Source: Tachypleus tridentatus (taxonomy: Eukaryota > Arthropoda > Merostomata > Xiphosura > Limulidae). From it: DNA of 64,000 nt. The stretch spans positions 36,135,771 to 36,199,770 of the forward strand of contig NW_027467782.1 in assembly GCF_004210375.1 (NCBI RefSeq), written 5' to 3'. The notes under the pieces are model-generated. The model searched no databases and was not told the DNA's origin. It saw nothing but the letters and a program-made list of their open reading frames with translations. Every line of letters starts with the position of its first letter. Within the stretch, counting starts at the first letter, position 1. Shown one piece after another: positions 1 through 37,957 of this stretch. Position numbers and translations under genes: made by a program.

Positions 1-3000
1 AACGAACAAGAAGTCGTGTTAATATAACAGTTGCTACAAAAAACAAGAGACAATCATGTTAAATAACATTTGTTACAAAGAACAAGAGACACTCATGTTT
101 ATGTAACACTTTTACAAAGAACAAGAGACATGTTGATATAACACTTGTTGAACTAGAGACTCATGTTAACTTGTTACAAAGAACAAGACAATCATGTTAA
201 TATAACACTTGTTACAAAGAACAAGACAATCATGTTACTATAGCATTTGTTACAAAAAACAAGAAAACTCATTAAGAGAAAACTTGGAACAATAAGCAGG
301 AGACACTCGTGTTAATGTGACTTGTTACAAAGAACAAGACACCACTCGTTATAATTTAACACTTTTACACAGAAAGAGACACTCATGTTAATGTTACACT
401 TGTTACAAAGAACAAGAGACACTAATATTAGGTTAATACTTATTGCAAAGAACAAGAGAAATCGTTTTAATATAACACTTGTTACAAAGAACAAGAGACA
501 TTCATCTTAATGTAACACTTGTTGCAAAGAACAAAAAAACAGTCATGTTAATCTAACACTTGTTTCAAAGAACAAGAGAAATCTTGTTATTATAACACTT
601 GTTAGAAAGAACAAGAGACATTCATGTTATGTAACACTTGTTAATGTAACAATCAAGTTAATCTTGTTTCAAAGAACAAGAGACACTGATGTCAATACAA
701 CAAGTGTTATATTAACATGATTGTTTCTTGTTCTTTTAACAAGTGTTTCATTAACACGAGTTCTCTTGTTCTTTATAAAAGTGTTTCATTAACACGAGTT
801 CTCTTGTTCTTTGTAACAAGTGTTACATTAACACGAGTGTCTCTTGTTCTTCGTAACAAGTGTTATATTAACATGTCTCTTGTTCTTTGTCACATGTGTT
901 ACATAAACATGGGTGTCTCTTGTTTTTTTGTAACTAGTGTTACATAAACGCGAGTTCTCTTGTTCTTTATAACAAGTGTTATAATAACGTGAGTGTTTCT
1001 TGTTTTTTGTAACAAGTGTTACATTAACATAATTGTATCTTGTTCTTTGTATCAAGTGATATATTAACATGATTGTTTCTTGTTCTTTGTAACAAGTGTT
1101 ACATTAACATGAGTCTCTTTGTTCTTTTGTAACAAGTGTAACATAAAGATGATTGTCTCTTCTTTTTTGTAACAAGTTTTATATTAGCATGAGTTCTCTT
1201 ATTATTCTTGAAACAAGTGTTATATTAACATCATTGTTTCTTGTTTTTTCTAACAAGTGTTACAATAACACGAGTTTCTCTTGTTCTTTGTAACAAGTGT
1301 TAGATTAACACGAGTATCTTTTGTTTTTGTAACAAGTGTTACATTAACAGGAATGTCTTGTTCTTTTATTACAAGTGCTCTATTAACACGACTTCTCTTG
1401 TTCTTTGTAGCAAGTGTTACATTAACATGAGTGTCGTGTTCTTTAAACAAGTGTTGTATTAACATGTTACTTGTTACAAAGTACAAGAGACTCATGTTAA
1501 TGTAACACTTGTTACAAAGAACAAGAGAACTCATGTATTAATATAACACTTGTTACAAAGAACAAGACACTCATGTTAATGTAACACTTGTTACAAAGAA
1601 CAAGAAACATCATATTAATGTAACACTTGTTACAAAGAACAAGAGACACATCAATGTTACAAAGATCATGTTAATAACACTTGTTACAAAGAACAAGAGA
1701 CACTCATGTTAATGTAACACTTGTTACAAAGAACAAGAGACACTCATGTTAATAACAGTTGTAACAAGAAGACTTGTTACAAAGAACAAGAGACACTTGT
1801 TAAAAGAACAAGACAACATGTGTAACACTTGTTACAAGAACAAGAACAATCACTGTTTATGTAACATTTGTTACAAGAACAAGAGACAACTCATAATAAT
1901 GTAACAAGATATTCTTGTTCTTGTTCTTTGTAAAATGTTATAATAACAAGATTTCTATTGTTCTTTGAAGTATTAGATTAACATGAGTTCTTTGCAACAA
2001 GTGTTACATTAACATGAGTTTCTCTTGTTCTTTGTAACAAGTGTTACATTAACATGAGTTTCTTGGTGTCTTTTGTAACAAGTGTTATGATTAACAGGAA
2101 TGTTTTGTTCTTTTATTACAAGTGCTCTATTAACACGACTTCTCTTGTTCTTTGTAACAAGTGTTAAATTAACATGAGTGTCGTGTTCTTTTGAACAAGT
2201 GTTGTTTTAACATGTTACTTGTTACAAAGTACAAGACTCATGTTAATGTAACACTTGTTACAAGAACAAGAGAACTCATATTAATATAACACTTGTTACA
2301 AAGAACAAGAGACACTCATGTTAATGTAACAATTGTTACAGAACAAGAGACATATCAATGTAACACTTGTTAAAAGAACAAGAAACTCATATAAATGTAA
2401 CACTTGTTACAAAGAACAAGAGACACTAATATTAGGTTAATACTCATGTTATTGCAAAAGAACAAGAGAAATCGTTTTAATATAACACTTGTTACAAAGA
2501 ACAAGAGACATTCATCTTAATGTAACACTTGTTGCAAAAAACAAACAGTCATGTTAATCTAACACTTGTTTCAAAGAACAAGAGAAATCTTGTTATTATA
2601 ACACTTGTTAGAAAGAACAAGAGACATTCATGTTAATGTAACACTTGTTACAAAGAACAAGAAACAATCATGTTAATCTAACACATGTTTCAAAGAACAA
2701 GAGACACTGATGTCAATACAACAAGTGTTATATTAACATGATTGTTTCTTGTTCTTTTTAACAAGTGTTAACAAGAGACACTGATGTCAATACAACAAGT
2801 GTTATATTAACATGATTGTTTCTTGTTCTTTTTAACAAGTGTTTCATTAACACGAGTTTTATCGTTCTTTATAAAAAGTGTTTCATTAACATGAGTTCTC
2901 TTGTTCTTTGTAAAAGTGTTACATTAACACGAGTGTCTCTTGTTCTTTGTAAAAGTGTTACATTAACACGAGTGTCTCTTGTTCTTCGTAACAAGTGTTA

Positions 3001-6000
3001 TATTAACATGTCTCTTGTTCTTGTAACATGTGTTACATAAACATGAGTGTCTCTTGTTTTTTGTAACTAGTGTTACATAAACATGAGTTCTCTTGTTTTT
3101 TATAACAAGTGTTATAATAACGTGAGTGTTTCTTGTTTTTTTTGTAACAAGTGTTACATTAACATAATTGTATCTTGTTCTTTGTATCAAGTGATATATT
3201 AACATGATTGTTTCTTGTTCTTTGTAACAAGTGTTAACATTGTAACATTAACATGAGTCTCTTGTTCTTTGTAACAAGTGTAACATAAAGATGATTGTCT
3301 CTTCTTTTGTAACAAGTTTTATATTAACATGAGTTCATTCTTTGAGTGTTATATTAACATCATCAAGTGTTACAATAACACGAAACAAGTGTTATATTAA
3401 CACGAGAATCTTGTTTTTGTTGTTACTTGTTTTTTCTAACAAGTGTTACATAAACGAGTTTCTCTTCTTTTGTAACTTGTTCTTTGTAACAAGTGTTAGA
3501 TTAACATCATTGAGTATCTTTTGTTTTTGTAACAAGTGTTACATTAAACAAGTGTTACAGGGAATGTCTTGTTCTTTATTACAAGTGCTCTATTAACACG
3601 ACTTCTCTTGTTTTTGTAGCAAGTGTTACATTAACATGAGTGTTTTGTAACAAGTGTTGTATTAACAAGTTACTTGTTACAAAGTTAACATGTTAATGTA
3701 ACACTTGTTACAAAGATCTAGAGACACTCATGTTAATGTAACACTTGTTGGAAAGAACAAGAGAAACAATCATATCAATCTAACACTTGTTCAAAGAACA
3801 AGAGACACTCATGTTTATCTAACACTTGTTACAATGAACAAGAGACTCTCATGTTAATGTAACACTTGTTACAAAGAACAAGAGAACTCGTATTGATATA
3901 AAACTTGTTACAAAGAACTAGACACTCATGTTAATGTAACACTTATTACAAAGAACAAGAAACAATCATATCAATGTAACACTTGTTACAAAGAACAAGA
4001 AGTCGTGTTAATATAACAGTTGTTACAAAAAAACAAGAGACAATCATGTTAAATAACATTTGTTACAAAGAACAAGAGACACTCATGTTTATGTAACACT
4101 TTTTACAAAGAACAAGAGACATGTTGATATAACACTTGTTACAAAGAACAAGAGACACTCATGTTAATGTAACACTTGTTACAAAGAACAAGACAATCAT
4201 GTTAATATAACATTTGTTACAAAGAACAAGAGAACTCGTGTTAATGTAATACTTGTTATAAAGAACAAGAAAACTCATTAATAGAAAACTTGGAACAATA
4301 AGTAGGAGACACTCGTGTTAATGTGACTTGTTACAAAGAACAAGACACACTCGTTATAATTTAACACTTTTTTACACAGAAAGAGACACTCATGTTAATG
4401 TTACACTTGTTACAAAGAACAAGAGACACTAATATTAGGTTAATACTTATTGCAAAGAACAAGAGAAATCGTTTTAATATAACACTTGTTACAAAGAACA
4501 AGAGACATTCATCTTAATGTAACACTTGTTGCAAAGAAAAAAAAAACAGTCATGTTAATCTAACACTTGTTTCAAAGAACAAGAGAAATCTTGTTATTAT
4601 AACACTTGTTAGAAAGAACAAGAGACATTCATGTTAATGTAACACTTGTTACAAAGAACAAGAAACAATCATGTTAATCTAACACTTGTTTCAAAGAACA
4701 AGAGACACTGATGTCAATACAACAAGTGTTATATTAACATGAGATTTCTTGTTCTTTATAACAAGTGTTTCATTAACACGAGTTTTGTCAGTTCTTTAAC
4801 AAGTGTTATATTAACATGAGTTCTCTTGTTCTTTTTAACAAGTGTTTCATTAACACGAGTTCTCTTGTTCTTTGTAAAAGTGTTACATTAACACGAGTGT
4901 CTCTTGTTCTTCGTAACAAGTGTTACATTAACACGAGTGTCTCTTGTTCTTCGTAACAAGTGTTACATTAACACGAGTGTCTCTTGTTCTTCGTAACAAG
5001 TGTTATATTAACATGTCTCTTGTTCTTTGTCACATGTGTTACATAAACATGAGTGTCTCTTGTTTTTTGTAACTAGTGTTACATAAACGCGAGTTCTCTT
5101 GTTCTTTATAACAAGTGTTATAATAACGTGAGTGTTTCTTGTTTTTTGTAACAAGTGTTACATTAACATAATTGTATCTTGTTCTTTGTATCAAGTGTTA
5201 TATTAACATGAGTCTTGTTCTTTGTAACAAGTGTTACATTAACATGAGTCTCTTGTTCTTTGTAACAAGTGTAACATAAAGATGATTGTCTCTTCTTTGT
5301 AACAAGTTTTATATTAGCATGAGTTCTCTTATTCTTTGAAACAAGTGTTATATTAACATCATTGTTTCTTGTTTTCTAACAAGTGTTACAATAACACGAG
5401 TTTCTCTTGTTCTTTGTAACAAGTGTTAGATTAACACGAGTATCTTTGTTTTTTGTAACAAGTGTTACATTAACAGGAATGTCTTGTTCTTTATTACAAG
5501 TGCTCTATTAACACGACTTCTCTTGTTCTTTGTAGCAAGTGTTACATTAACATGAGTGTCGTGTTCTTTGTAACAAGTGTTGTATTAACATGTTACTTGT
5601 TACAAAGTACAAGAGACTCATGTTAATGTAACACTTGTTACAAAGAACAAGAGAACTCATGTTAATATAACACTTGTTACAAAGAACAAGACACTCATGT
5701 TAATGTAACACTTGTTACAAAGAACAAGAGAAACAAAGAACAAGAGACACTCATATCAATCTAACACTTGTTACAAAGAACAAGAGACACTCATGTTGAT
5801 ATAACACTTGTTACAAAGAACAAGAGACACTCATGTTAATGTAACACTTGTTACAAAGAACAAGACAATCATGTTAATATAACATTTGTTACAAAGAACA
5901 AGAGAACTCGTGTTAATGTAATACTTGTTACAAAGAACAAGAAAACTCATTAATAGAAAACTTGGAACAATAAGTAGGAGACACTCGTGTTAATGTGACT

Positions 6001-9000
6001 TGTTACAAAGAACAAGACACACTCGTTATAATTTAACACTTTTTACAAAGAACAAGAGACACTCATGTTAATGTTACACTTGTTACAAAGAACAAGAGAC
6101 ACTAATATTAGGTTAATACTTATTGCAAAGAACAAGAGAAATCGTTTTAATATAACACTTGTTACAAAGAACAAGAGACATTCATCTTAATGTAACACTT
6201 GTTGCAAAGAACAAAAAACAGTCATGTTAATCTAACACTTGTTTCAAAGAACAAGAGAAATCTTGTTATTATAACACTTGTTAGAAAGAACAAGAGACAT
6301 TCATGTTAATGTAACACTTGTTACAAAGAACAAGAAACAATCATGTTAATCTAACACATGTTTCAAAGAACAAGAGACACTGATGTCAATACAACAAGTG
6401 TTATATTAACATGATTGTTTCTTGTTCTTTTTAACAAGTGTTAACAAGAGACACTGATGTCAATACAACAAGTGTTATATTAACATGATTGTTTCTTGTT
6501 CTTTTTAACAAGTGTTTCATTAACACGAGTTTTATCGTTCTTTATAAAAGTGTTTCATTAACATGAGTTCTCTTGTTCTTGTAAAAGTGTTACATTAACA
6601 CGAGTGTCTCTTGTTCTTTGTAAAAGTGTTACATTAACACGAGTGTCTCTTGTTCTTCGTAACAAGTGTTATATTAACATGTCTCTTGTTCTTTGTCACA
6701 TGTGTTACATAAACATGGGTGTCTCTTGTTTTTTGTAACTAGTGTTACATAAACGCGAGTTCTCTTGTTTTTATAACAAGTGTTATAATAACGTGAGTGT
6801 TTCTTGTTTTTTGTAACAAGTGTTACATTAACATAATTGTATCTTGTTCTTTGTATCAAGTGATATATTAACATGATTGTTTCTTGTTCTTTGTAACAAG
6901 TGTTACATTAACATGAGTCTCTCTTGTTCTTTGTAACAAGTGTAACATAAAGATGATTGTCTCTTCTTCTTTTTGTAACAAGTTTTATATTAGCATGAGT
7001 TCTCTTATTCTTTGAAACAAGTGTTATATTAACATCATTGTTTCTTGTTTTTCTAACAAGTGTTACAATAACACGAGTTTCTCTTGTTCTTTGTAACAAG
7101 TGTTAGATTAACACGAGTAGTTTTGTAACAAGTGTTACATTAACATGAGTTCTTGTTCTTTGTAACAAGTGTAATATAACAAGTGTTACATTAACAGAAT
7201 GTCTTGTTCTTTATTAAACAAGTGCTATATTAACATGATTCTCTTTTCTTTTTTCTAACAAGTGTTACATTAACATGAGTGTCTGTGTTCTTGTAACAAG
7301 TGTTGTATTAACATGTTACTTGTTACAAAGTACAAACAGACTCTCATGTTAATGTAACACTTGCTCTATTAACACGACTTCTCTTGTTAATGTAACACTT
7401 GTTACAAAGAACATGAGTGTCATGTTCACTTTGTTCAAAGAACAAGAGACACTCATGTTACATGTAACACTTGTTACAAAGAACAAGAGACACTCATGTT
7501 AATGTAACACTTGTTACAAAGAACAAGAGACACTCATATTAATGTAACACTTGTTCAAAGAACAAGAGACACTCATATTTATGTAACACTTGTTACAAAG
7601 AACAAGAGACTCTCATGTTAATGTAACACTTGTTACAAAGAACAAGAAACACTCATATTAATGTAACACTTGTTACAAAGAACAAGACACTCATGTTAAT
7701 GTAACACTTGTTACAAAGAACAAGAACAATCATATTAATGTAACACTTGTTACAAAGAACAAGAGAACTCGTGTTAATATAACACTTGTTACAAAGAACA
7801 AGAGACAATCATGTTAATATAACACTTGTTACAAAGAACAAGAGACACTCATGTTAATGTAACACTTGTTACAAAGAACAAGACAATCATGTTAATATAA
7901 CATTTGTTACAAAGAACAAGAGAACTCGTGTTAATGTAATACTTGTTATAAAGAACAAGAAAACTCATTAATAGAAAACTTGGAACAATAAGCAGGAGAC
8001 ACTCGTGTTAATGTGACTTGTTACAAAGAACAAGACACACTCGTTATAATTTAACACTTGTTACAAAGAACAAGAGACACTAATATTAGGTTAATACTTA
8101 TTGCAAAGAACAAGAGAAATCGTTTTAATATAACACTTGTTACAAAGAACAAGAGACATTCATGTTAATGTAACACTTGTTACAAAGAACAAAAAACAGT
8201 CATGTTAATCTAACACTTGTTTCAAAGAACAAGAGAAATCTTGTTATTATAACACTTGTTAGAAAGAACAAGAGACATTCATGTTAATGTAACTTGTTAC
8301 AAAGAACAAGAAACAATCATGTTAATCTAACACTTGTTTCAAGAACAAGAGACATCATGTTAATATAACACTTGTTACAAAGAACAAGAAACAATCATGT
8401 TAATCTAACACTTGTTTCAAAGAACAAGAGACACTGATGTCAATACAACAAGTGTTATATTAACATGATTGTTTCTTGTTCTTTTAACAAGTGTTTCATT
8501 AACACGAGTTCTATAGTTCTTTATAAAAGTGTTTCATTAACATGAGTTCTCTTGTTCTTTGTAAAAGTGTTACATTAACACGAGTGTCTCTTGTTCTTCG
8601 TAACAAGTGTTATATTAACATGTCTCTTGTTCTTTGTCACATGTGTTACATAAACATGGTGTCTCTTGTTTTTTGTAACTAGTGTTACATAAACGCGAGT
8701 TCTCTTGTTCTTTATAACAAGTGTTATAATAACGTGAGTGTTTCTTGTTTTTGTAACAAGTGTTACATTAACATAATTGTATCAAGTTCTTTGTATCAAG
8801 TGATATATTAACATGATTGTTTCTTGTTCTTTGTAACAAGTGTTACATTAACATGAGTCTTGTTCTTTGTAACAAGTGTAACATAAAGATGATTGTCTCT
8901 TCTTTTTTGTAACAAGTTTTATATTAGCATGAGTTCTCTTATTCTTTGAAACAAGTGTTATATTAACATCATTGTTTCTTGTTTTTCTAACAAGTGTTAC

Positions 9001-12000: not shown

Positions 12001-15000
12001 TGATGTCAATACAACAAGTGTTATATTAACATGATTGTTTCTTGTTCTTTTTAACAAGTGTTTCATTAACACGAGTTTTATTGTTCTTTATAAAAGTGTT
12101 TCATTAACATGAGTTCTCTTGTTCTTTGTAAAAGTGTTACATTAACACGAGTGTCTCTTGTTCTTCGTAACAAGTGTTATATTAACATGTCTCTTGTTCT
12201 TTGTCACATGTGTTACATAAACATGAGTGTCTCTTTTTTTGTAACTAGTGTTACATAAACGCGAGTTCTCTTGTTTTTATAACAAGTGTTATAATAACGT
12301 GAGTGTTTCTTGTTTTTTGTAACAAGTGTTACATTAACATAATTGTATCTTGTTCTTTGTATCAAGTGATATATTAACATGATTGTTTCTTGTTCTTTGT
12401 AACATGTGTAACATAAACATGAGTGTCTCTTGTTCTTTGTAACAAGTGTAACATAAAGATGATTGTCTCTTCTTTTTGTAACAAGTTTTATATTAGCATG
12501 AGTTCTCTTATTCTTTGAAACAAGTGTTATATTAACATCATTGTTTCTTGTTTTTTCTAACAAGTGTTACAATAACACGAGTTTCTCTTGTTCTTTGTAA
12601 CAAGTGTTAGATTAACACGAGTATCTTTGTTTTTTTGTAACAAGTGTTACATTAACAGGAATGTCTTGTTCTTTATTACAAGTGCTATATTAACACGACT
12701 TCTCTTGTTTTTTGTAGCAAGTGTTACATTAACATGAGTGTCGTGTTCTTTGTAACAAGTGTTGTATTAACATGTTACTTGTTACAAAGTACAAGAGACT
12801 CTCATGTTAATGTAACACTTGTTACAAAGATCTAGAGACACTCATGTTAATGTAACACTTGTTGGAAAGAACAAGAAACAATCATATCAATCTAACACTA
12901 GTTCAAAGAACAAGAGACACTCATGTTTATCTAACACTTGTTACAAAGAACAAGAGAACTCGTATTGATATAAAACTTCTTACAAAGAACTAGAGACACT
13001 CATGTTAATGTAACACTTGTTACAAAGAACAAGAAACAATCATATCAATGTAACACTTGTTACAAAGAACAAGAGAACTCGTATTAATATAACACTTGTT
13101 ACAAAGAACTAGACACTCATGTTAATGTAACACTTGTTACAAAGAACAAGAAAATCATATCAATCTAACACTTGTTACAAAGAACAAGAGACACTCATGT
13201 TGATATAACACTTGTTACAAAGAACTAGAGACACTCATGTTAATGTAACACTTGTTACAAAGAACAAGAGACAATCATGAACACTTGTTACAAAGAACAA
13301 GACAATCATGTTAATGTAACACTTGTTACAAAGAACAAGACAATCATGTTAATATAACACTTGTTACAAAGAACAAGAGAACTCATGTTAATATAACATT
13401 TGTTACAAAGAACAAGAAAACTCATTAATAGAAAACTTGGAACAATAAGCAGGAGACACTCGTGTTAATGTGACTTGTTACAAAGAACAAGACACACTCG
13501 TTATAATTTAACACTTTTTTACACAGAAAGAGACACTCATGTTAATGTTACACTTGTTACAAAGAACAAGAGACACTAATATTAGGTTAATACTTATTGC
13601 AAAGAACAAGAGAAATCGTTTTAATATAACACTTGTTACAAAGAACAAGAGACATTCATCTTAATGTAACACTTGTTGCAAAGAACAAAAAACAGTCATG
13701 TTAATCTAACACTTGTTTCAAAGAACAAGAGAAATCTTGTTATTATAACACTTGTTAGAAAGAACAAGAGACATTCATGTTAATGTAACACTTGTTACAA
13801 AGAACAAGAAACAATCATGTTAATCTAACACATGTTTCAAAGAACAAGAGACACTGATGTCAATACAACAAGTGTTATATTAACATGATTGTTTCTTGTT
13901 CTTTTTAACAAGTGTTTCATTAACACGAGTTTTATCGTTCTTTATAAAAGTGTTTCATTAACATGAGTTCTCTTGTTCTTTGTAAAAGTGTTACATTAAC
14001 ACGAGTGTCTCTTGTTCTTCGTAACAAGTGTTATATTAACATGTCTCTTGTTCTTTGTCACATGTGTTACATAAACATGGGTGTCTCTTGTTTTTTGTAA
14101 CTAGTGTTACATAAACGCGAGTTCTCTTGTTCTTTATAACAAGTGTTATAATAACGTGAGTGTTTCTTGTTTTTTGTAACAAGTGTTACATTAACATAAT
14201 TGTATCTTGTTCTTTGTATCAAGTGATATATTAACATGATTGTTTCTTGTTCTTTGTAACAAGTGTTACATTAACATGAGTCTCTTGTTCTTTGTAACAA
14301 GTGTAACATAAAGATGATTGTCTCTTCTTTTTTTGTAACAAGTTTTATATTAGCATGAGTTCTCTTATTCTTTGAAACAAGTGTTATATTAACATCATTG
14401 TTTCTTGTTTTTCTCTAACAAGTGTTACAATAACACGAGTTTCTCTTGTTCTTTGTAACAAGTGTTAGATTAACACGAGTATCTTTGTTTTTTTGTAACA
14501 AGTGTTACATTAACAGGAATGTCTTGTTCTTTATTACAAGTGCTCTATTAACACGACTTCTCTTGTTCTTTGTAGCAAGTGTTACATTAACATGAGTGTC
14601 GTGTTCTTTGTAACAAGTGTTGTATTAACATGTTACTTGTTACAAAGTACAAGAGACTCATGTTAATGTAACACTTGTTACAAAGATCTAGAGACACTCA
14701 TGTTAATGTAACACTTGTTACAAAGAACAAGAAACAATCATATCAATCTAACACTTGTTACAAAGAACAAGAGACACTCATGTTTATCTAACACTTGTTA
14801 CAAAGAACAAGAGACATTCATGTTAATGAACAAGAGAACACTTGTTACAAAGAACAAGAGAACTCATGTTTATGTAACACTTGTTACAAAGAACAAGAGA
14901 CACTGTAAATGTAACACTTGTTACAAAGAACAAGAGACACTCATCATTTAATGTAACACTTGTTACAAAGAACAAGAAACAATCATATCAATGTAACACT

Positions 15001-18000
15001 TGTTACAACGAACAAGACAGTCATGTTAATATAACAAGTTGTTACAAAAAACAAGAGACAATCATGTTAATGTAACAAGTGTTACAAAGAACAAGAGACA
15101 CTCATGTTAATTGTAACACTTGTTACAAAGAACAAGAGACATTTTGTTCTTTATTACACTTGTTACAAAGAACTAGAGACACTCATGTTAATGTAACACT
15201 TGTTACAAAGAACAAGACAATCATGTTAATATAACATTTGTTACAAAGAACAAGAGAACTCGTGTTAATGTAATACTTGTTATAAAGAACAAGAAAACTC
15301 ATTAATAGAAAACTTGGAACAATAAGTAGGAGACACTCGTGTTAATGTGACTTGTTACAAAGAACAAGACACACTCGTTATAATTTAACACTTTTTACAC
15401 AGAAAGAGACACTCATGTTAATGTTACACTTGTTACAAAGAACAAGAGACACTAATATTAGGTTAATACTTATTGCAAAGAACAAGAGAAATCGTTTTAA
15501 TATAACACTTGTTACAAAGAACAAGAGACATTCATCTTAATGTAACACTTGTTGCAAAGAACAAAAAACAGTCATGTTAATCTAACACTTGTTTCAAAGA
15601 ACAAGAGAAATCTTGTTATTATAACACTTGTTAGAAAGAACAAGAGACATTCATGTTAATGTAACACTTGTTACAAAGAACAAGAAACAATCATGTTAAT
15701 CTAACACATGTTTCAAAGAACAAGAGACACTGATGTCAATACAACAAGTGTTATATTAACATGAGTTTCTTGTTGTCAATACAACAAGTGTTATATTAAC
15801 ATGAGTTTTATTGTTCTTTATAAAAGTGTTTCATTAACACGAGTTTTCTAGTTCTTTATAAAAGTGTTACATTAACATGAGTTCTCTTGTTCTTTGTAAA
15901 AGTGTTACATTAACACGAGTGTCTCTTGTTCTTCGTAACTAGTGTTATATTAACATGTCTCTTGTTCTTTGTCACATGTGTTACATAAACATGGGTGTCT
16001 CTTGTTTTTTTGTAACTAGTGTTACATAAACGCGAGTTCTCTTGTTTTTATAACAAGTGTTATAATAACGTGAGTGTTTCTTGTTTTTTTTAACAAGTGT
16101 TACATTAACATAATTGTATCTTGTTCTTTGTATCAAGTGATATATTAACATGATTGTTTCTTGTTCTTTGTAACAAGTGTTACATTAACATGAGTCTCTT
16201 TGTTCTTTGTAACAAGTGTAACATAAAGATGATTGTCTCTTCTTTTTTGTAACAAGTTTTATATTAGCATGAGTTCTCTTATTCTTTGAAACAAGTGTTA
16301 TATTAACATCATTGTTTCTTGTTTTTCTAACAAGTGTTACAATAACACGAGTTTCTCTTGTTCTTTGTAACAAGTGTTAGATTAACACGAGTATCTTTTT
16401 TTTTAACAAGTGTTACATTAACAGGAATGTCTTGTTCTTTATTACAAGTGCTCTATTAACACGACTTCTCTTGTTCTTTTGTAGCAAGTGTTACATTAAC
16501 ATGAGTGTCGTGTTCTTTGTAACAAGTGTTGTATTAACATGTTACTTGTTACAAAGTACAAGAGACTCATGTTAATGTAACACTTGTTACAAAGATCTAG
16601 AGACACTCATGTTAATGTAACACTTGTTGGAAAGAACAAGAAACAATCATATCAATCTAACACTAGTTCAAAGAACAAGAGACACTCATGTTTATCTAAC
16701 ACTTGTTACAATGAACAAGAGACTCTCATGTTAATATAACACTTGTTACAAAGAACAAGAGAACTCATATTGATATAAAACTTGTTACAAAGAACAAGAC
16801 ACTCATGTTAATGTAACACTTGTTACAAAGAACAAGAAACAATCATATCAAATGTAACACTTGTTACAAAGAACAAGACAATCATGTTAATGTAACACTT
16901 GTTACAAAGAACAAGACAATCATGTTAATATAACATTTGTTACAAAGAACAAGAGACACTCATGTTTATGTAACACTTTTACAAAGAACAAGAGACATGT
17001 TGATATAACACTTGTTACAAAGAACAAGAGACACTCATGTTAATGTAACACTTGTTACAAAGAACAAGACAATCATGTTAATATAACATTTGTTACAAAG
17101 AACAAGAGAACTCGTGTTAATGTAATACTTGTTATAAAGAACAAGAAAACTCATTAATAGAAAACTTGGAACAATAACTAGGAGACACTCGTGTTAATGT
17201 GACTTGTTACAAAGAACAAGACACACTCGTTATAATTTAACACTTTTTACACAGAAAGAGACACTCATGTTAATGTTACACTTGTTACAAAGAACAAGAG
17301 ACACTAATATTAGGTTAATACTTATTGCAAAGAACAAGAGAAATCGTTTTAATATAACACTTGTTACAAAGAACAAGAGACATTCATCTTAATGTAACAC
17401 TTGTTGCAAAAAAAAAACAGTCATGTTAATCTAACACTTGTTTCAAAGAACAAGAGAAATCTTGTTAATCTTGTTATTATAACACTTGTTAGAAAGAACA
17501 AGAGACATTCATGTTAATGTAACACTTGTTACAAAGAACAAGAAACAATCATGTTAATCTAACACATGTTTTCAAAGAACAAGAGACACTGATGTCAATA
17601 CAACAAGTGTTATATTAACATGATTGTTTCTTGTTCTTTTTAACAAGTGTTTCATTAACACGAGTTTATAGTTCTTTATAAAAGTGTTTCATTAACATGA
17701 GTTCTCTTGTTCTTTGTAAAAGTGTTACATTAACACGAGTGTCTCTTGTTCTTCGTAACAAGTGTTATATTAACATGTCTCTTGTTCTTTGTCACATGTG
17801 TTACATAAACATGGGTGTCTCTTGTTTTTGTAACTAGTGTTACATAAACGCGAGTTCTCTTGTTCTTTATAACAAGTGTTATAATAACGTGAGTGTTTCT
17901 TGTTTTTTTGTAACAAGTGTTACATTAACATAATTGTATCTTGTTCTTTGTAACAAGTGATATATTAACATGATTGTTTCTTGTTCTTTGTAACAAGTGT

Positions 18001-21000
18001 TACATTAACATGAGTCTCTTGTTCTTTGTAACAAGTGTAACATAAAGATGATTGTCTCTTCTTTTCTTTTGTAACAAGTTTTATATTAGCATGAGTTCTC
18101 TTATTCTTTGAAACAAGTGTTATATTAACATCATTGTTTCTTGTTTTTTCTAACAAGTGTTACAATAACACGAGTTTCTCTTGTTCTTTGTAACAAGTGT
18201 TAGATTAACACGAGTATCTTTGTTTTTTGTAACAAGTGATACATTAATAGGAATGTCTTGTTCTTTATTACAAGTGCTCTATTAACACGACTTCTCTTGT
18301 TCTTTGTAGCAAGTGTTACATTAACATGAGTGTCGTGTTTTTTGTAACAAGTGTTGTATTAACATGTTACTTGTTACAAAGTACAAGAGACTCATGTTAA
18401 TGTAACACTTGTTACAAAGATCTAGAGACACTCATGTTAATGTAACACTTGTTGGAAAGAACAAGAAACAATCATATCAATCTAACACTAGTTCAAAGAA
18501 CAAGAGACTCTCATGTTAATGTAACACTTGTTACAAAGAACAAGAGAACTCGTATTGATATAAAACTTGTTACAAAGAACTAGACACTCATGTTAATGTA
18601 ACACTTGTTACAAAGAACAAGAAACAATCATATCAATGTAACACTTGTTACAAAGAACAAGAAGTCGTGTTAATATAACAGTTGTTACAAAAAACAAGAG
18701 ACAATCATGTTAAATAACATTTGTTACAAAGAACAAGAGACACTCATGTTTATGTAACACTTTTACAAAGAACAAGAGACATGTTAATATAACACTTGTT
18801 ACAAAGAACAAGAGACACTCATGTTAATTTAACACTTGTTACAAAGAACAAGAGAACTCGTGTTTATATAACACTTGTTACAAAGAACAACAAACATTTA
18901 TGTTAATGAAACACTTGTTACAAAGAACAAGAGAACTCATGTTTATGTAACACTTGTTACAAAGAACATGAGACACTCATATTAATGTAACACTTGTTAT
19001 ATTGACATCAGTGTCTCTTGTTCTTTGTAACAAGTGTTATAATAACAAGATTTCTCTTGTTCTTTGTAACAACAAGTATTAGATTAACATGAGTGACTGT
19101 TTTTTTGTTCTTTGCAACAAGTGTTACATTAAGATGAGTTTCTCTTGTTCTTTGTAACAAGTGTTAGATTAACATGAGTATCTTTCTTTTTGTAACAAGT
19201 GTTACATTAACAGGAATGTCTTGTTCTTTATTACAAGTGCTCTATTAACACGACTTCTCTTGTTCTTTGTAACAAGTGTTAAATTAACATGAGTGTCGTG
19301 TTCTTTTGAACAAGTGTTGTTTTAACATGTTACTTGTTACAAAGTACAAGACTCATGTTAATGTAACACTTGTTACAAAGAACAACAAGAGAACTCGTAT
19401 TAATATAACACTTGTTACAAAGAACTAGACACTCATGTTAATGTAACAATTGTTACAAAGAACAAGAAAATCATATCAATCTAACACTTGTTACAAAGAA
19501 CAAGAGACACTCATGTTAATATAACACTTGTTACAAAGAACTTGTTAATGTAACACTTGTTACAAAGAACAAGACATTCATGTTAATATAACATTTCTTA
19601 CAAAGAACAAGAGAACTCGTGTTAATGTAATACTTGTTATAAAGAACAAGAAAACTCATTAATAGAAAACTTGGAACAATAAGTAGGAGACACTCGTGTT
19701 AATGTGACTTGTTACAAAGAACAAGACACACTCGTTATAATTTAACACTTTTTACACAGAAAGAGACACTCATGTTAATGTTACACTTGTTACAAAGAAC
19801 AAGAGACACTAATATTAGGTTAATACTTATTGCAAAGAACAAGAGAAATCGTTTTAATATAACACTTGTTACAAAGAACAAGAGACATTCATCTTAATGT
19901 AACACTTGTTGCAAAGAACAAAAAAACAGTCATGTTAATCTAACACTTGTTTCAAAGAACAAGAGAAATCTTGTTATTATAACACTTGTTAGAAAGAACA
20001 AGAGACATTCATGTTAATGTAACACTTGTTACAAAGAACAAGAAACAATCATGTTAATCTAACACATGTTTCAAAGAACAAGAGACACTGATGTCAATAC
20101 AACAAGTGTTATATTAACATGAGTTTCTTGTTCTTTATAACAAGTGTTTCATTAACACGAGTTTTATAGTTCTTTATAAAAGTGTTTCATTAACATGAGT
20201 TCTCTTGTTCTTTGTAAAAGTGTTACATTAACACGAGTGTCTCTTGTTCTTCGTAACAAGTGTTATATTAACATGTCTCTTGTTCTTTGTCACATGTGTT
20301 ACATAAACATGGGTGTCTCTTGTTTTTTGTAACTAGTGTTACATAAACGCGAGTTCTCTTGTTCTTTATAACAAGTGTTATAATAACGTGAGTGTTTCTT
20401 GTTTTTTGTAACAAGTGTTACATTAACATAATTGTATCTTGTTCTTTGTAACAAGTGATATATTAACATGATTGTTTCTTGTTCTTTGTAACAAGTGTTA
20501 CATTAACATGAGTCTCTTGTTCTTTGTAACAAGTGTTACATTAACATGAGTCTGTAACATAACAAGTGTTGTCTCTTGTTTTTTTTTGTAACAAGTTGTA
20601 TATTAACATGAGTTCTCTTGTTCTTTGTAACAAGTGTTAGATTAACACAATTAACACGAGTATCTTTGTTTTTTGTAACAAGTGTTACATTAACAGGAAT
20701 GTCTTGTTCTTTATTACAAGTGCTCTATTAACACGACTTCTCTTGTTCTTTGTAGCAAGTGTTACATTAACATGAGTGTCGTGTTCTTTGTAACAAGTGT
20801 TGTTTTAACATGTTACTTGTTACAAAGTACAAGACTCATGTTAATGTAACACTTGTTACAAAGAACAAGAGACACTCATGTTAATAACACTTGTTAAAAG
20901 AACACTTGTTACAACACTTGTTACAAAGAACAAGAGACACTCATGTTAATGTAACACTTGTTACAAAGAACAAGAAAATCATGTTAATCAACACTTGTTA

Positions 21001-22430
21001 CAAAGAACAAGAGACTAACACTTGTTACAAAGAACAAGAGACACTCATATTAATATAACACTTGTTACAAAGAACAAGAGACACTCATGTTGATATAACA
21101 CGTGTTACAAAGAACAAGACAATCATGTTAATATAACATTTGTTACAAAGAACAAGAGAACTCGTGTTAATGTAACACTTGTTACAAAGAACAAGAAAAC
21201 TCATTAATAGAAAACTTGTTACAATAAGCAGGAGACACTCGTGTTAATGTAACACTTGTTACAAAGAACAAGACACACTCGTTATAATTTAACACTTTTA
21301 CACAGAAAGAGACACTCATGTTAATGTTACACTTGTTACAAAGAACAAGAGACACTAATATTAGGTTAATACTTATTGCAAAGAACAAGAGAAATCGTTT
21401 TAATATAACACTTGTTACAAAGAACAAGAGACATTCATCTTAATGTAACACTTGTTGCAAAGAACAAAAAACACTCATGTTAATCTAACACTTGTTTCAA
21501 AGAACAAGAGAAATCTTGTTATTATAACACTTGTTAGAAAGAACAAGAATTCATGTTAATGTAACACTTGTTACAAAGAACAAGAAACAATCATGTTAAT
21601 CTAACACATGTTTCAAAGAACAAGAGACACTGATGTCAATACAACAAGTGTTATATTAACATGATTGTTTCTTGTTCTTTTTAACAAGTGTTTCATTAAC
21701 ACGAGTTCTATTGTTCTTTATAAAAGTGTTTCATTAACATGAGTTCTCTTGTTCTTTGTAAAAGTGTTACATTAACACGAGTGTCTCTTGTTCTTCGTAA
21801 CAAGTGTTATATTAACATGTCTCTTGTTCTTTGTCACATGTGTTACATAAACATGGGTGTCTCTTGTTTTTTGTAACTAGTGTTACATAAACGCGAGTTC
21901 TCTTGTTCTTTATAACAAGTGTTATAATAACGTGAGTGTTTCTTGTTTTTCTTGTTCTTTTAACAAGTGTTACATTAACATAATTGTATCTTGTTCTTTG
22001 TATCAAGTGATATATTAACATGATTGTTTCTTGTTCTTTGTAACAAGTGTTACATTAACATGAGTCTCTTGTTCTTTGTAACAAGTGTAACATAAAGATG
22101 ATTGTCTCTTCTTTTAACAAGTTTTATTTTATATTAGCATGAGTTCTCTTATTCTTTGAAACAAGTGTTATATTAACATCATTGTTTCTTGTTTTTTCTA
22201 ACAAGTGTTACAATAACACGAGTTTCTCTTGTTCTTTGTAACAAGTGTTAGATTAACATGAGTATCTTTGTTTTTTGTAACAAGTGTTACATTAACAGGA
22301 ATGTCTTGTTCTTTATTACAAGTGCTCTATTAACACGACTTCTCTTGTTCTTTGTAGCAAGTGTTACATTAACATGAGTGTCGTGTTCTTTGTAACAAGT
22401 GTTGTATTAACATGTTACTTGTTACAAAGT
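1..22430. repeat. Inverted higher-order repeat domain of satellite A
   Basis: A diagnostic variant monomer (GGAGACACTCGTGTTAATG followed by ACTCGTTATAATTTAACAC) starts near 298, 4309, 5976, 7996, 9769, 11533, 13451, 15329, 17180, 19686 and 21230. The intervals are mostly 1.67-2.02 kb, with outliers of 1.54, 2.5 and about 4.0 kb; the last is a double unit from which one marker is lost. Between markers the same ordered series of variant monomers recurs, so this is a true higher-order repeat. Each unit has one direct half and one reverse-complement half. Confidence 0.9.
13451..15328. repeat. Representative higher-order unit (about 1.88 kb)
   Basis: This unit shows the typical build. Direct monomers run from 13451 to about 13865. 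The strand switches at the variant cactgatgtcaatacaaca, near 13852-13870. Reverse-complement monomers run to about 14625. The strand switches back at the palindrome TAACATGTTA (14626-14635). Direct monomers then continue to the next marker at 15329. The same order is seen in the units starting at 9769, 11533, 15329 and 17180. Confidence 0.85.
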
Positions 22431-25400
22431 ACAAGAGACTCTCATGTTAATGTAACACTTGTTACAAAGAACTAGAGACACTCATGTTAATGTAACACTT
22501 GTTACAAAGAACAAGAAGAACAAGAGACACTCATGTTAATCTAACACTTGTTACAAAGAACAAGAGACACTCATGTTAATCTAACACTTGTTACAAAGAA
22601 CAAGAGACTCATGTTAATATAACACTTGTTACAAAGAACAAGAAACACTCATGTTATATAAACACTTGTTACAAAGAACAAGACACTCATGTTAATGTAA
22701 CACTTGTTACAAAGAACAAGAGACACTCATATTAATGTAACACTTGTTACAAAGAACAAGAGAAATCGTTTTAATATAACACTTGTTACAAAGAACAAGA
22801 GACAATCATGTTAATGTAACACTTGTTACAAAGAACAAGAGACACTCATGTTAATCTAACACTTGTTACAAAGAACAAGAGAAATCTTGTTATTATAACA
22901 CTTGTTACAAAGAACAAGAGACACTCATGTTAATGTAACACTTGTTACAAAGAACAAGAAACAATCATGTTAATCTAACACTTGTTACAAAGAACAAGAG
23001 ACACTCGTGTTAAAAAGAACAAGAGTAATTAACATGATTGTTTCTTGTTCTTTTAACAAGTGTTACAAAGAACATGTTTCATTGTTCTTTGTAACAAGTG
23101 TTGTTATTAACATGAGTTCTCTTGTTCTTTGTAACAAGTGTTACATTAACATGTCTCTTGTTCTTTGTTCTTTGTACAAGTGTTACATAAACATGAGTGT
23201 CTCTTGTTCTTTGTAACAAGTGTTACATTAACATGATTTCTCTTGTTCTTTGTAACAAGTGTTACATTAACATGAGTAAAATAACATGAGTGTTTTTGTA
23301 ACAAGTGTTACATTAACAGGAATGTCTTGTTCTTTATTACAAGTGCTCTATTAACACGACTTCTCTTGTTCTTTGTAAAAGTGTTACATTAACATGAGTG
23401 TCGTGTTCTTTTGTAACAAGTGTTGTTTTAACATGTTACTTTTAACAACATGTTACTTGTTACAAAGTACAAGACACTCATGTTAATGTAACACTTGTTA
23501 CAAAGAACAAGAGAACTCGTATTAATATAACACTTGTTACAAAGAAAAGAGACACTCATGTTAATGTAACACTTGTTACAAAGAACAAGAGACACTCATA
23601 TTAATCTAACACTTGTTACAAAGAACAAGAGACACTCATGTTAATATAACACTTGTTACAAAGAACAAGAGACACTCATGTTAATGTAACACTTGTTACA
23701 AAGAACAAGAAAACAATCATGTTAATATAACACTTGTTACAAAGAACAAGAGAACTCGTGTTAATGTAACACTTGTTATAAAGAACAAGAAAACTCATTT
23801 AATAGAAAACTTGTTACAAAGAACAAGAGACACTCATGTTAATGTAACACTTGTTACAAAGAACAAGAGACACTCGTTATAATTTAACACTTTTAATACA
23901 ACAACAGATATTAACACGAGTTTCATGTTCTTTATAAAAGTGTTTCATTAACACTTGTTAATATAACAAGAGTGTTGTTACAAAACAAGAGTTTCATTAA
24001 CATGAGTTGTCTTGTTAACACTTGTTTCAAAGACAAGAGACACTGTTGTTACAAGTGTTACATTAACACATGAGTGTCTCTTGTTCTTTGTAACAAGTGT
24101 TATATTAACATGTCTCTTGTTCTTTGTAACAAGTGTTACATAAACATGATGTCTTTTGTTGTTTTCTGTAACAAGTGTTACATAAACATGAGTTCTCTTG
24201 TTCTTTATAACAAGTGTTATAATAACATGAACAGTGTTCTCTGTTTCTTGTTTTTGTAACAAGTGTTACATTAACACGAGTTCTCTTGTTCTTTGTAAAA
24301 GTGTTATATTAACATGATTGTTTCTTGTTCTTTGTAACAAGTGTTACATTAACACGAGTCTCTTGTTCTTTGTAACAAGTGTAACATAAAGATGATTGTC
24401 TCTTCTTTTGTAACAAGTTTTATATTAGCATGAGTTCTCTTATTCTTTGAAACAAGTGTTATATTAACATCATTGTTTCTTGTTTTTTTTAACAAGTGTT
24501 ACAATAACACGAGTTTCTCTTGTTCTTTGTAACAAGTGTTAGATTAACATGAGTATCTTTGTTTTTTGTAACAAGTGTTACATTAACAGGAATGTCTTGT
24601 TCTTTATTACAAGTGCTCTATTAACACGACTTCTCTTGTTCTTTGTAGCAAGTGTTACATTAACATGTTACTTGTTACAAAGTACAAGAGACTCATGTTA
24701 ATGTAACACTTGTTACAAAGATCTAGAGACACTCATGTTAATGTAACACTTGTTACAAAGAACAAGAAACAATCATATCAATCTAACACTTGTTACAAAG
24801 AACAAGAGACACTCATGTTAATGTAACACTTGTTACAAAGAACAAGAAAACTCGTATTGATATAAAACTTGTTACAAAGAACTAGAGACACTCATGTTAA
24901 TGTAACACTTGTTACAAAGAACAAGAAACAATCATATTAATGTAACACTTGTTACAAAGAACAAGAAGTCGTGTTAATATAACAGTTGCTACAAAAAACA
25001 AGAGACAATCATGTTAATATAACATTTGTTACAAAGAACAAGAGACACTCATGTTTATGTAACACTTTTACAAAGAACAAGAGACATGTTAATATAACAC
25101 TTGTTACAAAGAACAAGAGACACTCATGTTAATGTAACACTTGTTACAAAGAACAAGAGAACTCATGTTTATATACACTTGTTACAAAGAACAAGAGAAA
25201 TCTTGTTAATATGAACACTTGTTACAAAGAACAAGAGAACATTCATGTTTATGTAACACTTGTTACAAAGAACATGAGACACTCATGTTAATGTAACAAC
25301 TTGTTACAAAAAGAACAAGAAACATTCATGTTATGAGACACTCATATTAATGTAACACTTGTTATATTAACATCAGTGTCTCTTGTTCTTTGTAACAAGT

Positions 25401-26420
25401 GTTATAATAACATGATTTCTCTTGTTCTTTGAAACAAGTGTTACATTAACATGAGTTTTTTTTGTTCTTTGTAACAAGTGTTACATTAACATGAGTGTCT
25501 TTTTTTTTATCTTGTAACAAGTGTTACATTAACAGGAATGTCTTGTTCTTTATTACAAGTGTTACATTAACACGACTTCTCTTGTTCTTTGTAACAAGTG
25601 TTACATTAACATGAGTGTCGTGTTCTTTTGAACAAGTGTTGTTTTAACATGTTACTTGTTCTTAACAAAGTAACAAGACTCATGTTAATGTAACACTTGT
25701 AACAAAGAACAAGAGAACTCATTATTAATATAACAAGTGTTACAAAGAACAAGACAATCATATCAATCTAACAAGTGTTACAAAGAACAAGAGACACTCA
25801 TGTTAATTAACACTTGTTACAAAGAACAGAGACACTCATGTTAATATAACACTTGTTACAAAACAAGAACAAGATGTAACACTCATATTAGAACAAGAAC
25901 AGTTGTTACAAAGAACAAGAGAACTCGTGTTAATGTAATACTTGTTATAAAGAACAAGAAAACTCATTAATAGAAAACTTGTTGAACAAAGAACAGGAGA
26001 CACTCATGTTAATGTAACACTTGTTACAAAGAACAAGAGACACTCGTTATAATTTAACACTTGTTACAAAGAACAAGAGACACTCATGTTAATGTAACAC
26101 TTGTTACAAAGAACAAGAGACACTCATATTAATCTAACACTTGTTGCAAAGAACAAGAGACACGTTTTAATATAACAAGTGTTACAAAGAACAAGAGACA
26201 TTCATGTTAATGTAACACTTGTTCTTTGCAAAGAACAAAAAAGTTCTCATGTTAATCTAACACTTGTTACAAAGAACAAGAGAAATCTTTGTTATTATAA
26301 CACTTGTTACAAAGAACAAGAGACATTCATGTTAATGTAACACTTGTTACAAAGAACAAGAGACAATCATGTTAATCTAACACGTGTTACAAAGAACAAG
26401 AGACACTCACGAGACACTGA
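22430..26420. repeat. Irregular, more uniform part of satellite A
   Basis: Monomers here are closer to the plain consensus (for example 22,540-22,990 and 26,000-26,370), and many variant positions that mark the higher-order unit are lost. Strand switches are closer together (23,429, 24,661, 25,645). Marker remnants survive near 23,868 and 26,041. It looks like a region where the higher-order pattern has been overwritten by local conversion or unequal exchange; that is inference. Confidence 0.7.
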
Positions 26421-29400
26421 TTTCAATACAACAAGTGTTATATTAACATGATTGTTTCTTGTTTTTTTAACAAGTGTTACATTAACATGAGTTCTCTTGT
26501 TCTTTGTAACAAGTGTTATTATTAACATGAGTTCTCTTGTTCTTTGTAACAAGTGTTATGTTAATACGACCTCTTATTTTTTGTAACAAGTGTTACATTA
26601 ACACGAGTGTCTCTTGTTCTTTGTAAGAAGTGTTATATTAACACGAGTTCTTTTGTTCTTTTTTAACAAGTGTTACATTAACATCAGTGTCTCTTGTTCT
26701 TTGTAACAAGTGTTATATTAACATGAGTGTTTCTTGTTCTTTGTAACAAGTGTTATATTAACATGATTGTCTCTTGTTCTTTCTAACAAGTGTTATATAA
26801 ACACGAGGTCTCTTTGTTCTTTGTAACAAGTGTTACATTAACATGAGTGTCTCTTTCTTTGTAAAAGTGTTATATTAACACGAGTTCTCTTCTTTGTAAT
26901 AAGTGTTACATTAACATGAGTGTCTTTTTGTTCTTGATAAGAAGTATTACATTAACACGAATTCTCTTGTTCTTTGTAACAAGTGTTATATTAACATCAG
27001 TTTTCTTGTTCTTTGTAACAAGTGTTATATTAACAGAGTGTTTCTTTGTTCTTTGTAACAAGTGTTATATTAACACGACCTCTTATTTTTTTTTGTAACA
27101 AGTGTTACATTAACACGAGTGTCTTTTGTTCTTGGTAACAAGTGTTATATTAACATGAGTTCTTTTGTTCTTTTAACAAGTGTTACATTAACACGAGTGT
27201 CTCTTGTTCTTTGTAATAAGTGTTACTTTAACATTAGTGTCTTTTGTTCTTGATAAGAAGTGTCACATTAACATGAATGTCTTTTGTTCTTGGTAACAAG
27301 TGTTATATTAACATGATTGTTTCTCGTTTTTTTGTAACAAGTGTTATATTAACATGATTGTTTCTCGTTTTTTTGTAACAAGTGTTATATTAACACGATT
27401 GTTTCTCTTGTTTGTGTTATATTAACATGAATGTCTCTTTTCTTTGTAACAAGTGTTATATTAACATGAATGTCTCTTTCTGTGTCACAAGTGTTACATT
27501 AACATCAGTGTCTTGTTCTTTGTAACGTGTTAGAATAATATGATTGTTTCTTGTTTTTTGTAACAAGTGTTACATAAAGACGAGTTCTCTTGTTCTTTGT
27601 AACAAGTGTTACATAAACACGAGTTCTCTTGTTCTTTGTAACAAGTGTTATAATAACGTGACTGTGTTTTCTTGTTCTTTGTAACAAGTGTTATAATAAC
27701 TTTGTAACAAGTGTTATATTAACGATTGTTTCTTGTTCTTTGTAAGAAGTCTTACATTAACATGAGTGTCTCTTGTTCTATGTAACAAGTGTTACATAAA
27801 GATGATTGTCTCTTCTTTTTGTAACAAGTTTTATATTAGCTTGATTTCTGTTATTCTTTGAAACAAGTATTACATTAACATGAGTGTCTCTTGCTCTTTG
27901 TAACAAGTGTTATATTAACACGAGTTCTCTTCTTTGTAATAAGTGTTACGTTAACATGAGTATCTTTTGTTCTTGGTAACAAATGTTATATTGACATGAG
28001 TTCTTTTGTTCTTTTTAACAACTGTTACATTAACATGAATGTCTGTTGTTCTTTGTAATAAGTGTAACATTAACTTGAGTGTCTCTTGTTCTTTGTAATA
28101 CGTTTTACAATGACACGAGTGTCTCTTGTTCTTTGTAACAAGTTTTACAATAACACGAGTGTCTTGTTCTTTGTAACAAGTGTTACATTAACATGAATGT
28201 CTTGTTTTTTATTACAAATGCTCTATTAACACCAATTCTCTTGTTGTTTGTAGCAAGTGTTATATTGACATCAGTGTCTCTTTTCTTTGAAACAAGTGTT
28301 ATATTGAATCAGTGTCTTGTTCTTTGAAACGTGTTAGAATAATATGATTGTTTCTTGTTTTTTTTGTTAGAAGTGTTACATAAACACGAGTTCTTTTGTT
28401 CTTTGTAACAAGTGTTACATAAATACGAGGTCTCTTGTTCTTTCTAACAAGTGTTATAATAACGTTTGTGTTTCTTGTTTTTTTTAAAACAAGTGTTATA
28501 TTAACATGATTGTTTCTTATTCTTTGTAACAAGTGTTAGACTAACATGAGTGTCTTGTTCTTTGTGATAGGTGTTATATCAATAGGATTTCTCTTATTCT
28601 TTGTAACAAGTGTTATATTAACACGAGTTCTTTTGTTCTTTTTAACAGCTGTTACATTAACATCATTGTTTTTCGTTCTTTGTAATAAGTGTATATTAAC
28701 ATGAGTGTCTCTTCTTCTTTGAAACAAGTGTTATATTAACATGATTGTTTCTTGTTGTTTCTAGCAAGTGTAATATAAGCACGAGTTCTCTTGTTCTTTG
28801 GAACAAGTATTATATTAACATGAGGGTCTCTTGCTCTTTGTAAAAAGTGTCATATTAACACGAGTTCTCTTTATTGTAATAAGGGTTACATTAACATGAG
28901 TGTCTTTTGTCCTTGATAAGAAGTATTACATTAACACGAATTCTCTTGTTCTTTGTAACAAGTATTATATTAACACAAGTTTTCTTGTTCTTTGTAAGAA
29001 GTGTTATGTTAATACGACCTCTTATTTTTTTGTAAAAGTGTTACATTAACACGAGTTTTCTTGTACTTTGTAACAAGTGTTATATTGACACGAATTCTCG
29101 TGTTATTTGTAACACGTTACATTAACAAGTTTCTCTTGTTCTTTCTGACAAGTGTCATATAAATACGAGTCCTTTTGTTCTTTTTAACAAATGTTACCTT
29201 TACATGAGTGTTTCTTGTTCTTTGTAACAAGTGTTATAATAACGTGTTTGTTTTTTTATTGAAACAAGTGTTTTTTTAACACGAGTGTCTTTTTTTTTTG
29301 TAAAAGTAGCATGTGTAATATAAACACGAATTCTCATGTTTTTTGTAATAAGTGTTACATTAACACGAGTGTGTCTTGTTCTTTGTAACAAGTGTTACAT

Positions 29401-29910
29401 TAACATGAGTGTCTGTTGTTCTTTGTAACAAGTGTTATATTGACATGAGTTCTCTTGTTCTTTTTAACAAGTGTTACATTAACATGAGTGTCTTGTTCTT
29501 TATTACAAGTCCTATATTAACACAAGTGCTCTTGTTCTTAGTAGTAAGTTTTACGTAAACATGTGTGTCTCTGTTCTTTTAACAAGTGTTACATTAATAT
29601 TAGTGTTTCTTGTTCTTTGTAACGAGTGTTACATTAACATGTGTGTCTCGTTCTTTGTAACAAGTTTTATATAGACGAGTTGTTCTTTTTAACAAGTGTT
29701 ACATTGACACGAGTGTCTTTTGTTCTTTGCAAGAAATGTTATTTAACCATGAGTGACTCTTGTTCTTTTAACAAGTGTCATATTAACATCTTTCTTTCTT
29801 GTTCTTTGTAACAATTGTTATATTAACATGAGTGTTTCTTGTTCTTTGAAACAAGTGTTAGATTAATATGATTTTTTCTTGCTCTTTGTAAAAAGTGTTA
29901 TATTAACATG
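26420..29910 (-). repeat. Single-orientation, diverged edge of satellite A
   Basis: After the last direct-to-reverse switch (near 26,420), essentially all monomers read as reverse complement (cttgttctttgtaacaagtgtta) up to the array end. Divergence between neighbours is visibly higher than at 1-22 kb, with many substitutions and truncated monomers. The higher-order marker is absent. This is the pattern expected of an older array edge that no longer takes part in homogenisation. Confidence 0.8.
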
Positions 29911-34453: not shown

Positions 34454-34558
34454 CTGAAAAAAAACATACACTAGAGAAAATAAGAGACTTTCGACTGGAT
34501 GAATGAATATAAATAAAGGTTCTTAATGGATAAAAGAGACTGTACTTAATTATTCTAC

Positions 34559-37955: not shown

Positions 37956-37957
37956 GG

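Follow-up and report, generated by a model that had tools for sequence, protein, structure and literature searches.

We analyzed a 64,000-nucleotide stretch of the genome of the horseshoe crab Tachypleus tridentatus (contig C19, NW_027467782.1; C19:36,135,771-36,199,770; hereafter the window), whose left part is occupied by a satellite of ~40-bp monomers that changes strand repeatedly. Tandem Repeats Finder (TRF) detected the ~40-bp unit on both strands from window position 17 to 29,914. A strand map was then obtained by two-strand decomposition with a ~40-bp monomer model, a check that the original prediction, made from the sequence of the window, had itself proposed. Positions 1-26,430 were resolved into 684 monomers (307 on the plus strand and 377 on the minus strand; median length 39 bp), and the alternating blocks were recovered. 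The monomers fell into 45 strand runs, 36 of which contained at least 5 monomers, whereas 1000 shuffles of the strand order gave a mean of 339 runs and never fewer than 296. The predicted strand switching is therefore real, and the alternating pattern within contigs is well supported. Blocks of at least 5 monomers measured 0.27-1.12 kb in this part. The predicted limits of the array, 1 to 26,430, held for the alternating part, but the monomer family goes on, on one strand, to 29,914, and leftward of the window the 40-bp array extends ~11.3 kb to a 500-N gap (C19:36,123,935-36,124,434). By the identical procedure, the 28 kb flank past this gap, used as a control, gave 7 isolated monomer-like matches.

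The strand map revealed an inverted higher-order unit, in which a forward (F) block and a reverse (R) block are joined and the pair is repeated in tandem. The unit contains ~20 F and 27 R monomers in ~1.85 kb, with canonical arm lengths of about 0.77 kb (F) and about 1.05 kb (R); every canonical unit holds two long, oppositely oriented subunits. The alternating part and three successive canonical units are as follows.

1 to 26,429, no single strand: alternating-strand part of the 40-bp satellite, with 684 monomers in 45 runs, continuing left to the 500-N gap
12,013 to 13,866, no single strand: canonical inverted unit (F block 12,013-12,776, R block 12,777-13,866)
13,867 to 15,742, no single strand: next canonical inverted unit (F block 13,867-14,634, R block 14,635-15,742)
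15,743 to 17,601, no single strand: next canonical inverted unit (F block 15,743-16,543, R block 16,544-17,601)

The assembly searched has 205 contigs and a total length of 2.17 Gb. Searched with the Pfam family Coagulin, a horseshoe crab protein, it gave 19 matches, all above the cut-off (best E 1.5e-25), against none in 14 control genomes. The inverted higher-order unit is real; arrays built from it lie on contigs C19, C14 and C4 and form pieces tens of kb long. Array A (C19:459-501 kb) consists of alternating blocks of ~20 and ~27 monomers, in units that mostly measure 1.8-1.9 kb. The same pattern, less regular, was found in the array of the window (array B), in array C (C14:8.95 Mb), in array E (C19:1.225 Mb) and in the C4 array (20.975 Mb). 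Array D (C19:37.24 Mb) carries a four-block version of the unit.

Strand switches were classified along the two-strand Viterbi path in six regions, and three junction types were defined by monomer phase: J1 (F to R), and J2 and J3 (both R to F). These three types account for 191 of the 255 switches (94 J1, 78 J2 and 19 J3). Within the window, 57 switches were called, namely 15 J1, 15 J2, 2 J3 and 25 of rarer kinds, some of which are very short and possibly noise. The direct-plus-inverted block had been predicted to recur at least ten times, and this was borne out by the J1-type switches (1469, 2217, 3672, 5595, 7318, 9240, 10925, 12777, 14635, 16544, 18369, 19332, 20815, 22417 and 24670) and the J2-type switches (699, 2720, 2794, 4721, 6393, 6467, 8447, 10181, 11948, 12013, 13867, 15743, 17602, 20101 and 21643). 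The direct tandem order of the units is seen in the J2-J1-J2 succession in arrays A, B and C, and array A contains 23 J2 sites in 41.6 kb. Examples of the three junctions in the window are given below.

12,764 to 12,796, plus strand: junction J1 (F to R), GTATTAACATGTTACTTGTTACAAAGTACAAGA, one of the 15 J1-type switches
13,850 to 13,887, plus strand: junction J2 (R to F), GACACTGATGTCAATACAACAAGTGTTATATTAACATG, one of the 15 J2-type switches
18,978 to 19,022, plus strand: junction J3 (R to F, with the other version of the core copy), with its switch at 19,000; a second lies at 25,365

Searching arrays A-D with a tolerance of 6 errors gave 53 J1+ and 64 J2+ sites, of which 48 and 63, respectively, were letter-identical. 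Across the assembly, a 30-base J1 pattern gave 582 matches and a 31-base J2 pattern 509 matches with up to 2 mismatches, while the reversed control patterns gave 0 each. Among the matches listed, which extend as far as C19:1.28 Mb, the J1 and J2 places fall on contigs C4, C14 and C19. The best near-palindrome of the monomer is TGTAACAAGTGTTACA, in which 14 of 16 positions are self-complementary. We read J2 and J3 as switching from R to F at the core of this palindrome and sharing one core copy, and recombination or template switching at the palindrome may have produced them.

To compare the units, we used 32 canonical ones with the exact succession J2-J1-J2 and a length of 1.5-2.1 kb (20 from A, 7 from B, 4 from C and 1 from D), excluding all others. 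Their junction columns are conserved by the way they were chosen, via exact junction strings, and the identities exclude gaps. Identity between units was 99.2% for A-A, 94.1% for B-B, 96.9% for C-C, 95.7% for A-B and 97.9% for A-C. Conservation was highest in the F-block columns (columns 150-650 at 99.3-99.8%) and lowest midway through the R block. Separate homogenisation of each array was considered and rejected as a general description; it holds for A but not for B (94.1%, against 95.7% to A) or C (96.9% against 97.9%). Within the window, we compared the 25 blocks of >500 bp bounded by the three recurrent junction types, leaving out other blocks and excluding gaps. Mean identity was 98.3% among the 12 F blocks and 95.2% among the 13 R blocks, in agreement with the claim that the tandem block repeats the same ordered variants.

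The two arms were compared with each other in the same way. F blocks and reverse-complemented R blocks of the window were 87.1% identical (156 pairs; 87.3% for 18 neighbouring pairs), gaps being excluded. Between single monomers, gaps being counted, identity in three units was 78.5-78.8% within F blocks, 80.0-81.9% within R blocks and 79.3-80.1% between strands; in unit A06 the values were 78.5% (FxF), 80.0% (RxR) and 79.3% (FxR), and two further units were similar. The best mirrored register of unit A06 reached 0.818 against 0.814 for the direct-order control, and the excess was below 0.01 in three units. The F and R arms are no mirror copies. Since the arms are unmirrored and the units nevertheless alike, these results suggest that an inversion was captured early and then amplified head to tail.

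We give a probability of roughly 0.68 to this reading, an early inversion followed by ordinary head-to-tail amplification of the inverted pair. The starting point would have been a divergent ~40-bp satellite array with all its monomers on one strand; the right edge of the present array (26,430-29,914) probably survives from it. One inversion, or a few, would then have turned a segment of that ancestral array around; the common R-to-F switches lie at the monomer near-palindrome. Tandem amplification may next have taken as its unit a ~1.8-kb piece that spans both breakpoints, with about 20 F and 27 R monomers. Head-to-tail multiplication, by unequal exchange, conversion or amplification of the rolling-circle type, would have carried both breakpoints along nearly unchanged and led to the array pieces on C19, C14 and C4. 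Later rearrangements between arms could have yielded variants such as the four-block unit of array D. The order of events, the mode of amplification and the spread between loci are what we infer from the patterns described above. Under this reading no function of the sequence would be necessary to explain the array. The original prediction had suggested maintenance by something other than simple unequal exchange. Such a mechanism is unnecessary, since the F+R unit is a direct tandem repeat and ordinary unequal exchange, conversion or amplification at the unit level could explain the 99.2% identity in array A.

The right edge of the array was examined as the possible remnant of the ancestral state, and it directly adjoins another repeat.

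26,430 to 29,914, plus strand: one-strand right edge of the array, ~90 monomers, the part from 27,562 to ~28,330 being collinear with the F block
29,911 to 31,908, plus strand: GC-rich 34-bp tandem repeat directly adjoining the 40-bp satellite, with the same boundary at the C4 copy

Collinearity of F and R with the edge was assessed by monomer-level local alignment in two units. F monomers 6-19 were collinear with the edge from 27,562 to ~28,330 with a score of 15.2, which 0 of 60 shuffles reached in either unit; in the reversed-order control, 60 of 60 shuffles reached the score. The edge of the C4 copy (C4:21,070,569-21,071,856) consists of 41 one-strand monomers collinear with the window edge (0 of 60 shuffles), followed by the boundary to the 34-bp repeat. 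The one-strand edge, in two assembled copies that are perhaps alleles, offers a partial before-and-after view. For the R end, the best edge match started from 26,677, on the plus strand, at the places listed for arrays A-D (eight for B). An edge that keeps the F tail and directly after it the R end, for which one monomer spoke, was dropped once the R end had been placed at 26,677. Fixed monomer registers between the edge and the F and R blocks were uninformative, the reversed-order controls being equally high. Among the monomer triples listed against a shuffled null, a single one exceeded the 99% level of the null; it is F[0] of unit B05, which sits right at the junction. The edge is also periodic in itself, repeating about every 51 monomers (lag score 0.71, against at most 0.57 in 200 shuffles), which is an older higher-order repeat.

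Several observations weigh against an early inversion followed by tandem amplification. Taken as a whole, the R block showed no significant collinearity with the edge, its score being reached by 25 of 60 shuffles in one unit and by 13 of 60 in the other, so the un-inverted ancestor is only half recovered. The edge score of the R end (mean 92.7 in A) was above the mean but below the best of the other R pieces (99.0), and in the edge the R end does not directly follow the F tail; from its placement and score, a simple in-place inversion is unsupported. As for the junctions, 64 of the 255 switches, 31 of them in array B, fall outside the three types. The palindrome is moderately unusual, as 151 of 2000 shuffled monomers reached 12 of 14 matches of the 14-mer core. 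At J1 two different phases of the monomer meet, with TTAACATG from one strand fused to the core half ACTTGTTAC from the opposite strand. J2 and J3 have a common variant on one side and may represent a single event. The units of B, C and C4 are nearer to A than to each other, as are their F blocks; this is a star-like pattern around an A-like unit, with part of the scatter perhaps due to read error. Finally, the C4 array may be an allele of that in the window, which makes it weak as independent support.

We further examined the hairpin potential of the junctions. In DNA folding of ~120 bases, one J1 site reached -36.3 kcal/mol (z -10.7) and one J2 site -33.1 kcal/mol (z -8.7); two control pieces, the first taken from within an R block and the second from within an F block, gave -12.1 and -12.2 kcal/mol (z -1.7 and -1.3). 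The monomers flanking J2 are joined by a perfect stem of 25 bp. Hairpin potential at the switch points is thus real in silico, but the original prediction of very large hairpins has to be moderated: the arms are only ~76-80% alike over 200-600 bp and their variants are unmirrored, and the large hairpins possible on paper would be imperfect. The strong predicted folding of the recurrent junctions as single strands, together with the precedent in Tribolium (PMC13081366), could mean that the inverted form was selected, with junction hairpins or cruciforms helping to mark centromeric or pericentromeric chromatin, as proposed there. We regard this as unlikely. The high conservation across the 32 units lies in F-block columns 150-650, whereas the junction columns were fixed by the choice of units; moreover, the array pieces are tens of kb in size, and the junctions among the matches listed lie on the three contigs.

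The 25-bp stem at J2 would also fit a fold-back inverted duplication, in which the second arm was copied from the first and a true palindrome has since decayed. However, in two units the score of the mirrored-order local alignment was matched by 32 and 43 of 100 shuffles, so that the mirrored order of variants was no better than chance, though the units themselves are alike. For same-strand order, the two counts were 0 and 13 of 100 shuffles. The blocks are also unequal, with about 20 against 27 monomers. The lack of mirroring weakens the fold-back explanation, which we judge quite improbable.

The lack of mirroring argues strongly against an artefact of missed hairpin adapters as well. Missed adapters, chimeric reads or reversed joins could create false switches, and the assembly shows some grounds for caution: each of the five gaps encountered is a 500-N scaffold gap, four being located where an array ends, and small indels in the C4 array suggest noisy long reads. 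In addition, window positions 59480-63802 are an inverted copy of 42658-38318 (99.2% without gaps) that starts exactly after the 500-N gap at 58,980-59,479, and C4:21076520-21086000 is a copy of the unique flank of the array, window 31910-41364 (98.6% without gaps, 96.9% with gaps). Both are signs of unpurged haplotypes or reversed contigs. Nevertheless, adapter palindromes predict near-identical arms, unlike the arms observed here, and the switches are located in sequence without gaps, with arrays that were assembled separately showing them at the same junctions. An assembly or read artefact is therefore very unlikely.

The inverted copy at the window gap looks like a retained haplotig or a reversed contig; overall it spans 59480-64000 against 42658-38079, as a 4.4-kb piece plus a 0.2-kb piece. 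The duplicated flanks may be haplotigs or recent duplications. A first value of 88.4% for the C4 flank had included the 34-bp array, and 98.6% refers to the unique flank. Homogenisation between chromosomes after an old flank duplication was dropped as an explanation, since the identity of the unique flank is above most of the means between arrays. Because of the haplotig-like duplications near gaps, copy numbers and chromosome assignment are provisional, whereas the order inside gap-free stretches is unaffected by such scaffold-level copies.

A foldback-type or other mobile element with terminal inverted repeats built of tandem repeats is hardly tenable, since the units stand in tandem and the observed ends of arrays are formed by gaps or other satellites, although inverted blocks of short tandem repeats resemble the FB elements of Drosophila (isolated copies, target-site duplications and open reading frames were not specifically searched).

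Other repeats accompany the arrays and the window. The 34-bp repeat at window 29911-31908 is of the gggaaatgtccctagcaacggggtaagcagtg type and is also present at C4 and, past a gap, at C14. A 38-bp repeat of the GATCAAACTATGTGATCAAATTGATGGAATGAGTGTCT type flanks arrays A and D on one side (C19:455001-459290 and C19:37240001-37242404). No doubled TTAGG or TTAGGG was found in the first 10 kb of C1, C2 and C19 or in the last 10 kb of C19. To the right in the window, there are two short tandem arrays with 62-bp and 43/86-bp periods (53772-54191 and 55199-55621) and one dispersed repeat in four copies (46825-47045, 51478-51698, 49657-49886 and 54941-55148). The dispersed repeat is probably a short interspersed nuclear element (SINE) derived from transfer RNA (tRNA); similar SINE-like elements are known from horseshoe crabs. 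ARAGORN detected no tRNA genes in the window, and the window had no Rfam match at gathering scores. An open frame at 37944-38228 matches a helix-turn-helix domain (PF12840, E 3.9e-07); we take it to be probably a decayed mariner-type transposase.

Alpha satellite is organized in higher-order repeats in which a multi-monomer unit keeps a uniform orientation. The horseshoe crab satellite resembles it in combining high identity between units (94-99%, gaps excluded) with much lower identity between monomers (~79%, gaps counted); it differs in that the orientation switches inside every canonical unit. Our literature search found no paper on this horseshoe crab satellite, which is not a claim that it is absent from print, and a term count found no occurrence of the word 'satellite' in the main text of two horseshoe crab genome papers (PMC7815833, PMC7210998).

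The architecture is of a kind already known from flour beetles. The closest precedent is Tribolium madens, whose 'macro-dyad' satellites TmSat1 and TmSat2 are described as switching strand inside arrays at conserved inversion sites (PMC13081366). These sites are of few types, are 98.2-98.9% conserved and have strong predicted hairpins, and one progenitor monomer with variants is described (PMC13081366). The units are based on ~110 bp and make up 38% of the genome, with predominantly two subarrays per array, as checked on raw HiFi reads, and the arrays form multi-megabase putative (peri)centromeric regions on all chromosomes (PMC13081366). The horseshoe crab satellite shares the strand switches within arrays, the few conserved inversion-site sequences, the strong predicted hairpins at junctions and the single progenitor monomer with variants. 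In contrast, its monomer is 40 bp, the inverted pair is itself a ~1.8-kb tandem unit, the pieces are tens of kb, and it is known from an assembly only. The 1061-bp satellite of Tribolium brevicornis, with inverted segments of ~470 bp (cited in PMC13081366 and listed among the references of PMC8122249 and PMC12692304), is likewise a repeat unit with two long segments of opposite orientation, whereas the horseshoe crab arms are arrays of ~20 or ~27 short monomers and not mirror copies.

Horseshoe crabs would thus be a second, distant arthropod lineage with a Tribolium-like architecture, in which the monomer is much shorter and the inverted pair is what is amplified. It seems rather doubtful, yet conceivable, that the two lineages acquired this form independently since short palindromes at the switch points favour an inverted unit in amplification, through hairpin-driven restart of replication or recombination, or in chromatin; if so, the propagated entity would be the inversion junction and not the monomer. 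The comparison of horseshoe crabs with Tribolium enables a test of whether conserved inversion sites are helpful to amplification or chromatin, or are mere hitch-hikers.

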